Source of the DNA: Burkholderiaceae bacterium
GTDB lineage: Bacteria > Pseudomonadota > Gammaproteobacteria > Burkholderiales > Burkholderiaceae_F
Length of the DNA stretch: 64,000 bases
NCBI GenBank assembly: GCA_017461315.1
Contig: JAFTYR010000075.1
Coordinates: forward strand, 1 to 64,000
Reading direction: 5' to 3'
A program made the translations under genes and the position numbers. Shown one piece after another: positions 59,809-62,680 of this stretch (position 1 is the stretch's first letter; the number at the start of each line of letters is the position of its first letter). A model generated the notes under the pieces. That model did not search any database, was not told the origin of the DNA, and saw nothing but the letters and a program-made list of their open reading frames with translations.

Positions 59809-61137
59809 TTAAGTTAATGAAGCGATAAAGGTCTTGGTTGCTTGATTAATTTTATTCAAGGGAATTCCCGTTACTCCAAGAACGATTGTTTTTTCAGAAA
59901 TCTGTTTTAAACAAATCCCTTTCGATTGCATTGATGTCACAAAGTCCACAGGGAATGTTCCTTGCTGGAGTTCAAGAAGAAGTGCAAGTCCAGAGGGAGC
60001 TTCTTGTATCAAAAATAAATTAGGTGCTAATTGTTCAATTAGCTTTTTTAGACTAAACATTTTGTGAGTGCATTGATTTCTTAATGCTTTAACATGTCGG
60101 GGAAGATAGCCTGAATTTAAAAAATCCGATAAAGCTAGCTGTTCCAATGTAGAAGCAGATTGGTTATAAAAACGAATCTTCTGATCTAGATTTTGAATCA
60201 GGGACAGAGGAAGAACCATGAAACTGATTCGAAGCGTTGGTGTTAATAGTCTAGAAAATGAACTCAGATAAACAATGTTAGCGGAGGGATTCATACCTTG
60301 TAGTGACGATGCCGCTTCACTATGATTGCGAAATTCGCCTGTGTAATCATCTTCTAAAACAATCTGATTGTTTTCTTGAATTGTTTTTAAAAATTGAATT
60401 CGTTCTGTGGATGTCAAACGTCGTCTGCCACCGTTAATTTCAGAACCAATATAGATAACTCTAGCCTTGATCTTTTTTAATTGCTGTAATTGAAAATACT
60501 CAATGGTCCAACCGTGATTTTTAAAGATAATCTCTAATTGAGGAAATCCCTTTCCTTCAAACGCAATATGCTTATCCTCTTGTGGTAACAAATTAATAAG
60601 GATGGGAATCAGCGCTTGCATACCTGATGCAATAACTACTTGTTTGGCAGAGCAACTAACTCCTCGGGCATTAAAAGCATATTTAGCAATGGCATTTCGT
60701 AAACAGAACTCGCCCTGTGGATTTCTATAGGCACTAAATATCGTATTGGATTTGGTAGCACGGTGAATTGCACGGCGCCAAAGTGTAATCGGGAATATTT
60801 CTTTATCTACCGCACTATCTCGAAAATCAAAAAGAATTGGAGTGTTGTTTTCTAATTGATTTTCGTAAAAATTTTGATTTAAAGCTAAACCTAAATCAGC
60901 AACGAAATAACCACTTTTATTTTTAACTGTTAGGTATCCATTACAGACAAGATGTCGTAGTGCATTTTCGACGGTGGGTTTAGATATAGCGAGCGTTTTT
61001 ACAAGATTTCGTATGCTAGGTAATTTAAAACCAACTTGAAGTTTTCCATCTCGAATACCAGAAATGATGAACGCTTCTAACTGTTTATACAGCGGAGTTT
61101 TTGATTTCACATCAAACTGTAATTCAGAAAAAAACAT
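59809..61137 (-). CDS. pdxR: PdxR-like MocR/GntR-family regulator lacking the PLP lysine
   Basis: 442 residues. A GntR-type winged helix (about 1-80; LYKQLEAFIISGIRDG, SKPTVENALRHLV) is joined to a fold type I aminotransferase-like domain. Divergence from pdxST points to a regulator of vitamin B6 synthesis. In MocR proteins the PLP lysine lies in an S-x-S-K-x-L-x-P motif. Here the segment is SSFSRLLTPTLRI with Arg296, codon AGA (complement of 60250-60252). The usual TPSHQ-P-G segment is also replaced (GSEINGGRRR). It may bind PLP non-covalently or another ligand. Confidence 0.8.
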   Translation of the reverse strand: MFFSELQFDVKSKTPLYKQLEAFIISGIRDGKLQVGFKLPSIRNLVKTLAISKPTVENALRHLVCNGYLTVKNKSGYFVADLGLALNQNFYENQLENNTPILFDFRDSAVDKEIFPITLWRRAIHRATKSNTIFSAYRNPQGEFCLRNAIAKYAFNARGVSCSAKQVVIASGMQALIPILINLLPQEDKHIAFEGKGFPQLEIIFKNHGWTIEYFQLQQLKKIKARVIYIGSEINGGRRRLTSTERIQFLKTIQENNQIVLEDDYTGEFRNHSEAASSLQGMNPSANIVYLSSFSRLLTPTLRISFMVLPLSLIQNLDQKIRFYNQSASTLEQLALSDFLNSGYLPRHVKALRNQCTHKMFSLKKLIEQLAPNLFLIQEAPSGLALLLELQQGTFPVDFVTSMQSKGICLKQISEKTIVLGVTGIPLNKINQATKTFIASLT

Positions 61138-61191
61138 AATCTGTCTAGTAATAAATAAAAGAAACTGTATATAAAAACAATGACAAATGCT

Positions 61192-61207
61192 GTCAAAATA
61201 ATTTGAC
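61192..61207. promoter_or_regulatory. Inverted repeat in the pdxR-pdxS intergenic region
   Basis: GTCAAA (61192-61197) and TTTGAC (61202-61207) form a 6-bp inverted repeat with a 4-bp gap, upstream of a TATAAC that could be a -10 box. It is a candidate binding site for the divergent regulator. Confidence 0.4.
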
Positions 61208-61241
61208 CTTAATTTTATAACTAAATTTTTGGAGAATTAAC

Positions 61242-62120
61242 ATGACAGATAGATGTCAAATTAATAAAGACCTTGCAAAAATGCTTAAAAACGGTGTCAT
61301 TATGGATGTGACGAACGCTGAACAGGCGCGTATTGCTGAAAAAGCGGGTGCTGTAGCCGTAATGGCTCTTGAACGAGTCCCTAGTGATATACGTCGTGAT
61401 GGTGGCGTTGCTCGTATGAGTGATCCGGTCTTAATCAAGGAAATTAAATCTGCTGTGAGTATTCCGGTGATGGCAAAAGTTCGTATTGGGCATTTTGTTG
61501 AAGCAGAAATACTTCAAGAGTTAGGTATTGATTACATTGATGAAAGTGAAGTTTTAACACCAGCGGATGAACAGCATCATATTTATAAGCACGACTTCAA
61601 AATTCCATTTGTTTGCGGTGCTCGAAACCTAGGAGAAGCGCTTCGTCGAATCGGAGAAGGCGCATCTATGATTCGTACTAAGGGTGAGGCTGGTACCGGT
61701 AATGTAGTAGAAGCGGTTCGTCACATGAGAACCATGATGGTACAGATTCGTCAGCTTCAAAATATGCCGTACGATGAACTTATGAGTTTTGCAAAAGAAA
61801 ATGGAGCCCCTTTTGAGTTGATTAAAAAAGTTGCCGAAGAAGGAAAACTGCCAGTTGTTAACTTCGCTGCGGGTGGTATCGCCACTCCTGCCGACGCCGC
61901 TCTCATGATGCGTCTCGGAGCAGAAGGTGTTTTTGTTGGTTCTGGTATTTTCCGTAGTGGCAATCCTCAAAAGCGTGCCAATGCTATCGTTATGGCAACG
62001 ACTTTCTATAACGATATTAAGAAGATTGCTGAAGTATCTGAAGATTTAGGACTACCTATGTCCGGTATTGATGTTAGAAATTTAAAAGAAAATGAAACCT
62101 TCGCACAGAGAGGTTGGTAA
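61242..62120 (+). CDS. pdxS: Pyridoxal 5'-phosphate synthase subunit PdxS
   Basis: 292 residues. With PdxT it makes PLP from ribose-5-phosphate, glyceraldehyde-3-phosphate and glutamine (DXP-independent route). The two catalytic lysines are visible: Lys79 in [10 protein letters not shown] and Lys147 in [22 protein letters not shown] and [19 protein letters not shown] are family hallmarks. The stop overlaps the pdxT start by one base. This pathway is uncommon in Proteobacteria, which mostly use PdxA/PdxJ. Confidence 0.97.
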
Positions 62121-62680
62121 TGCAATGTGTTGGAGTTCTCGCACTGCAAGGCTCTTTTGCTGAGCATTTACATTCGTTAAGTGATATTGGCGTAAAGGCG
62201 CTTGTTGTACAAAATAAGGCAGACCTAGAAAGGGTGGATCGTCTTATTATTCCTGGTGGAGAAAGCACAACTATTGGAAAAATTCTACGAGATACAGAGC
62301 TTTTTTATCCGTTAAAAGAGAAAATTCAAAATGGTATGCCGGTGTGGGGAACTTGTGCTGGATGTATTCTTTTAGCAAAACAGGTTCAGTCTGGTGTACC
62401 ACAGTTGGAATGCATGAATATTCGGGTTGAACGTAATGCCTATGGAAGTCAGTTGGATAGTTTTTCTACGCAAGAGATGATACCGGTAATTTCTAATAAA
62501 CTATTGAATTTAATTTTTATACGAGCCCCTAAAATACGATCGGTTTTTGGACATGCTCAAGTACTGTGTCAAGTGCGAGGAGAAATTGTTGCAGTAAGAG
62601 AGAACTCTATGTTCGTTACCACGTTTCATCCCGAATTGGCAGACGGAGGAGATTTTCATCAGTATTTCTTGCAAATATGA
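62120..62680 (+). CDS. pdxT: PLP synthase glutaminase subunit PdxT
   Basis: 186 residues. Class I glutamine amidotransferase supplying ammonia to PdxS. Motifs are VLALQGSFAEHL, IPGGESTTIGK, the nucleophile in GTCAGCILLA (Cys79), and the His170/Glu172 dyad in FHPEL. A TTG at 62114 would extend it by two residues; the ATG at 62120 (TAATG overlap) is more likely. Confidence 0.95.
   Translation: MQCVGVLALQGSFAEHLHSLSDIGVKALVVQNKADLERVDRLIIPGGESTTIGKILRDTELFYPLKEKIQNGMPVWGTCAGCILLAKQVQSGVPQLECMNIRVERNAYGSQLDSFSTQEMIPVISNKLLNLIFIRAPKIRSVFGHAQVLCQVRGEIVAVRENSMFVTTFHPELADGGDFHQYFLQI

Follow-up and report, generated by a model that had tools for sequence, protein, structure and literature searches.

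A PdxR-like MocR regulator with arginine at the position of the PLP-binding lysine, encoded divergently from pdxST in a Burkholderiaceae bacterium

The window analysed here, a 64,000-nucleotide stretch of contig JAFTYR010000075.1 from a Burkholderiaceae bacterium, includes a gene for a PdxR-like regulator of the MocR type (59809-61137, minus strand; 442 amino acids), recognised as an open reading frame and by HMMER, Pfam, and NCBIfam matches. The protein combines a GntR winged helix-turn-helix domain (residues 16-79; 60901-61092, minus strand; PF00392, 43.9 bits against a cut-off of 27) with a fold type I aminotransferase domain (PF00155, Aminotran_1_2; 35.7 bits, cut-off 19.7). Its best NCBIfam model is PdxR (NF052282), at 303.6 bits and so under the 320-bit cut-off of that model, and HMMER alignments to Bacillus subtilis GabR (4n0b; E 1.1e-38) and to 7pq9 span most of its length. 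The gene is divergent from pdxS (61242-62120, plus strand; 292 amino acids; TIGR00343, 481.7 bits, over the cut-off) and from the frame that follows it (62120-62680, plus strand), which we take to be pdxT from its adjoining pdxS and from its motifs; the ATG of this frame lies at 62120, and the listed open reading frame starts at an upstream TTG (62114). The regulator is the sole MocR-type match in its assembly (1.55 Mb, 84.66% complete; the only draft genome representing the genus); a second match, L003, is an aminotransferase-type open reading frame of 399 amino acids that keeps FSK. A homologue search of genome contigs gave no close relatives and a single distant match, a Chloroflexota fragment 31% identical over 90 residues. 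An AlphaFold model built from the single sequence has a mean pLDDT of 34.

The 104-base spacer between pdxR and pdxS (61138-61241) is a candidate operator. It contains CTGT at 61141, 61165, and 61190, at intervals of 24 and 25 bp, and an inverted repeat of 79% (61170-61188 and 61201-61219). The corresponding spacers of the related genomes G058 and G047 contain CTGG boxes 24 bp apart; those of G046 and G043 hold one CTGG box and an inverted TCTGGC/GCCAGA pair, with no spaced box pair. The number of box pairs was matched in 0 of 2000 shuffles of the regulator's spacer, 30 of 2000 for G047, and 10 of 2000 for G058, with box and spacing chosen after inspection; a looser pattern, likewise chosen after inspection and derived from the spacer's own boxes, matches only these two places in 64 kb, with 0.10 expected. 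Because of that choice the operator is only a lead. Scans for terminators and for Rfam families there returned nothing.

The central feature of the regulator is found in the loop SSFSRLLTP (residues 292-300; 60238-60264, minus strand), as read from the translation and the alignments. Arg296 (codon AGA, TCT on the plus strand; 60250-60252, minus strand) stands opposite the lysine of FSKSL in the HMMER alignments to GabR and 7pq9, in which GabR Lys312 corresponds to it, so the Schiff-base lysine of the MocR subfamily is here an arginine. This position, and a codon one base from AAA, are as the earlier note had read them, and open reading frame, codon, and alignments agree. No lysine was found in residues 285-310, so that loop holds no shifted Schiff-base lysine of the kind that the note had set out as a test of its reading. 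With arginine at position 296, no internal aldimine can form there, as had been proposed. A survey of MocR proteins reports Asp279 and Lys312 to be conserved in each of its three clusters (PMC6677901), and the equivalent Lys302 is reported as conserved in all 278 EnuR-type proteins inspected in a study of that group (PMC8739950).

Other parts of the pocket have changed as well. The note had also listed the loss of a second aminotransferase-domain motif, and this holds: the PSHQFPSG of GabR lies opposite GSEINGGRR (residues 231-239), within a rewritten loop IGSEINGGRRR (residues 230-240; 60418-60450, minus strand) that replaces the TPSHQFPSG of relatives and covers GabR Phe250. Two further changes had escaped it, namely KGF in place of PGY (residues 196-198; 60544-60552, minus strand) and two stretches that are shortened in the alignment, one before residue 218 and one near residue 412. 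Referred to GabR, the changed residues are Lys312 (Arg296), Phe250 (Ile234, an approximate pairing given the alignment gaps there), His114 (Asp107), and Arg207 (Gln200); the last two are effector residues that bind carboxylate in GabR and that a PdxR may do without (roles from PMC6917764). Kept, or still aromatic, are ring-stacking Tyr205 as Phe198, Asp279 and Tyr281 as Asp263 and Tyr265 of EDDY (residues 262-265; 60343-60354, minus strand), and Arg319, which contacts the PLP phosphate, as Arg303 (60229-60231, minus strand); Asp263 thus provides the aspartate that contacts the pyridine nitrogen. The roles of the GabR residues are those given in Table 2 of PMC6917764, and GabR Arg430 falls outside the numbered alignment.

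The assignment to PdxR, which the note had proposed, is borne out by the divergent pdxST pair and by the place of the protein among the pdxS-linked MocR regulators. In the family, pdxS scores over the TIGR00343 cut-off in 5 of 67 genomes, and all five have a divergent MocR neighbour; the lysine loops of the other four read FTKSLAS, FTKSLAS, FSKTLAS, and FSKTISP. The tree groups the regulator with these four (branch support 99/97), on the longest end branch of the group (2.36, against 0-1.56), which makes its place less sure. Across 31 pdxS loci (the five of the family, 7 further ones among 399 sampled genomes of the order, and 19 further ones among 369 sampled genomes of the class, the order and class matches taken only at E < 1e-100), a MocR-type frame was found beside pdxS in six, within flanks of about 1.5 kb that some contig ends cut short; five have lysine and only the regulator has arginine. 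The arginine is therefore a lineage-specific change and not a conserved feature of the homologues, a question for which the note had called for an alignment.

The sixth case, in genome G702 (loci L125 and L148), which belongs to the same class outside the family, has the loop FSKLLMP. No protein found lies closer to the regulator than this one, at 32% identity. This likeness hints that the pdxR-pdxST unit may move between lineages. The pdxS-linked PdxR of G058 (L007:1486-2565) keeps its lysine, and its frame ends after 359 amino acids.

Loss of constraint falls mainly on the sensor half. Between the source genome and four compared genomes (G047, G058, G702, and G046), PdxS identity is 65-67%, and between G702 and the other three it is 60-64%, a similar distance; the sensor half of the regulator is 26-28% identical to the others, against 33% for G702 to the other three, and the DNA-binding half 35-38% against 39-47%. 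In the sensor half (residues 100-358) the regulator breaks 24 of the 54 columns that are invariant in the four other PdxR proteins; for the DNA-binding half the count is 4 of 21. When each of the others is left out in turn, the sensor half yields 5/35 for G047, 10/40 for G058, 6/36 for G702, and 4/34 for G046 (25/145 pooled), and the DNA-binding half 2/19, 4/21, 2/19, and 0/17 in the same order (8/76 pooled); G043, a near copy of G046, was omitted. Fisher tests against the pooled counts give p = 1.6e-4 for the sensor half and p = 0.28 for the DNA-binding half, both rough values since the rows share ancestry and the DNA-binding columns are few; single comparisons of the sensor half give 0.007 against G702 and 0.08 against G058.

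Together these comparisons of sequence describe a real, lineage-specific change in a regulator of known type, and a wider one than first noted. The regulator resembles PdxR in its GntR and aminotransferase domains, its divergent pdxST, its place in the tree with pdxS-linked MocR proteins, and its kept ring and phosphate residues; it differs in the arginine, the rewritten Phe250 loop, the shortened stretches, and a score under the NCBIfam cut-off. It also shares the architecture of B. subtilis GabR (4n0b, 4mgr), but the mechanism of GabR relies on aldimines, internal and external, at Lys312, where the regulator has Arg296, together with Asp107 for His114 and Gln200 for Arg207. Descriptions of PdxR present it as a feedback sensor of PLP; the regulator, departing from the conserved Schiff-base lysine while its DNA-binding half looks intact, probably no longer senses B6 in the usual way.

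The reading we favour, tentatively and at a little short of an even chance, is that the regulator is a PdxR without PLP-aldimine sensing that stays in an apo-like state activating pdxST, so that the pair is constitutive or under other control. The DNA-binding half would still bind the pdxR-pdxS spacer and activate pdxST; PLP would be without effect, being unable to switch off a regulator that has no lysine at 296 and whose pocket is remodelled on its ring and effector side. PdxR in its apo form is reported to activate pdxST, with PLP acting as an anti-activator (PMC5320631), so the simplest consequence of losing PLP binding would be activation that is constitutive and needs no ligand, an alternative that the note had not raised. 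A MocR protein locked in its DNA-bound form has a precedent in the EnuR variant Lys302His, reported to be a constitutive repressor that no longer carries PLP (PMC8739950). The joint loss of the lysine and the Phe250 loop, the heavier toll on the sensor half, the open frame, the apparent lack of a de novo B6 route other than pdxST, and the 24-25 bp spacing of the spacer repeats, which resembles that in G058 and G047 (a reading made post hoc), count in favour of this account. Against it stand the scan of 60900-61400, in which no sigma-70-like promoter was found, and the Pseudomonas aeruginosa regulator MpaR, in which a Lys-to-Ala change is reported to abolish activation (PMC10790758), which means that loss of the lysine can also kill a MocR activator. 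Both EnuR Lys302His and MpaR Lys314Ala are likewise MocR proteins without the PLP lysine, but they were made in the laboratory, whereas the regulator is natural and carries accompanying changes.

A ligand-free site need not keep Phe198, Asp263, Tyr265, and Arg303, and their retention speaks against one. The same residues leave room for non-covalent binding, an option raised in the note, which we rank second and think unlikely: the regulator would sense PLP or another phosphorylated compound without an aldimine, keeping feedback on pdxST with faster exchange and lower affinity, the four residues holding ring and phosphate and Arg296 perhaps serving as a second positive charge. A proposal from molecular dynamics, that Arg319 and Arg207 of GabR sense the negative charge at the site (PMC5734734), lends this some support, since such sensing needs no aldimine; Arg207, however, is Gln200 here. 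The rewritten Phe250 loop and the shortened C-terminal part weigh against it, as does the loss of the yellow PLP colour reported for EnuR Lys302His (PMC8739950).

Decay is a more distant prospect. A gene of a small genome might be losing its function, its frame open because the loss is recent, and the longest branch of the group and the truncated PdxR frame of G058 would suit such an account, which we regard as improbable. When neutral decay was simulated with substitutions only, 53% of runs still had an open frame at 0.01 substitutions per site, enough to accommodate a recent loss, but the share fell to 4.6% at 0.05 and 0.1% at 0.1. The regulator's frame is open over 442 codons, which indicates that the changes at conserved columns did not accumulate in an unconstrained gene; change at 24 of 54 conserved positions cannot be recent neutral change with an open frame. 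The GC content by codon position (0.46, 0.35, 0.26) also resembles that of the adjoining genes.

An assembly or base error at Arg296, or a change private to one strain of an otherwise PLP-binding PdxR, is very unlikely. The note had named lysine in relatives as grounds for such a reading; relatives do carry lysine, AGA is one base from AAA, and the genus is represented by one genome, but a single-base error could explain Arg296 alone and not the changes in the adjoining pocket loop, at PGY, and at many other pocket positions. Least credible of all is that another pocket lysine forms the Schiff base, such as Lys196 of KGF, which lies two residues before the ring-stacking Phe198 but outside the loop that carries the lysine in relatives.

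Neither pdxJ nor pdxH was found in the assembly, weak evidence at 84.66% completeness, and a PdxK/ThiD-family kinase is present (PF08543, 286.9 bits). The pdxST pair thus appears to be the sole de novo B6 route in the assembly, in which case a shut-off signal or feedback may matter little. Searches of an open-access library showed no PdxR or MocR lacking the lysine. Occurring in nature with its gene pair but without the lysine, the regulator offers a direct test of whether pdxST needs PLP control at all, and of where in the pocket the signal resides.

Eleven further natural cases occur in a single clade of the family. Among the matches listed, a family alignment of 45 MocR rows, the regulator included, has lysine in 31 and another residue in 14; the rows that a length or profile filter had dropped (19 from the family, one from the order) include stand-alone aminotransferases. 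The tree requires four losses or changes of the lysine: in the regulator, in L019 (Gln), in L104 (on a very long branch, its alignment doubtful), and once in the clade of 11 (support 100/98; L021, L022, L031, L088, L089, L097, L102, L103, L108, L111, and L112), which has Ser, Leu, Thr, Pro, or Gln at the position. Like the regulator, the clade has lost the lysine from the corresponding loop; it differs in that its loss is separate on the tree, its neighbour is PNPOx/Nim-like, and several members lose the Asp or Tyr of EDDY. A PNPOx/Nim-like gene lies nearby in 8 of the 11; in six of them it is divergent and its product, on inspection by eye, begins with a signal-like stretch. All five of these six that were scanned against Pfam match Pyridox_ox_2 over its cut-off; the sixth contributed to a profile built from the six, with which the neighbours of L111 and L112 were found. 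Weaker matches to this profile lie near L012, L020, L025, and L084 of the lysine-bearing sister group, and the pairing may therefore be older than the lysine's loss. PdxW regulons with putative pyridoxamine phosphate oxidases have been described (PMC5320631).

Absence of the lysine as a general background of MocR proteins was considered and rejected, since lysine is present in every row and locus compared outside the family: 28 of 28 order rows and 15 of 15 class loci among the matches listed (about the best 30 loci per search, at stricter E-values than for the family set), 26 of 26 order loci found with a profile of the Lys-less proteins (again about the best 30 per search), and L082, an order locus dropped from the alignment. 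It is conceivable, if doubtful, that MocR regulators of B6-related genes in the family left PLP-aldimine sensing several times independently and became pseudo-PLP sensors with another ligand or none, the instances being the regulator, the Gln variant, and the clade of 11, most of whose members have a PNPOx-like gene nearby.

A copy related to the Lys-less clade (G064:C1:10689-11903) has six in-frame stops and is apparently decayed. The Gln variant (L019:1429-2964) has EHNN for EDDY and adjoins a gene of the cytochrome c assembly type.
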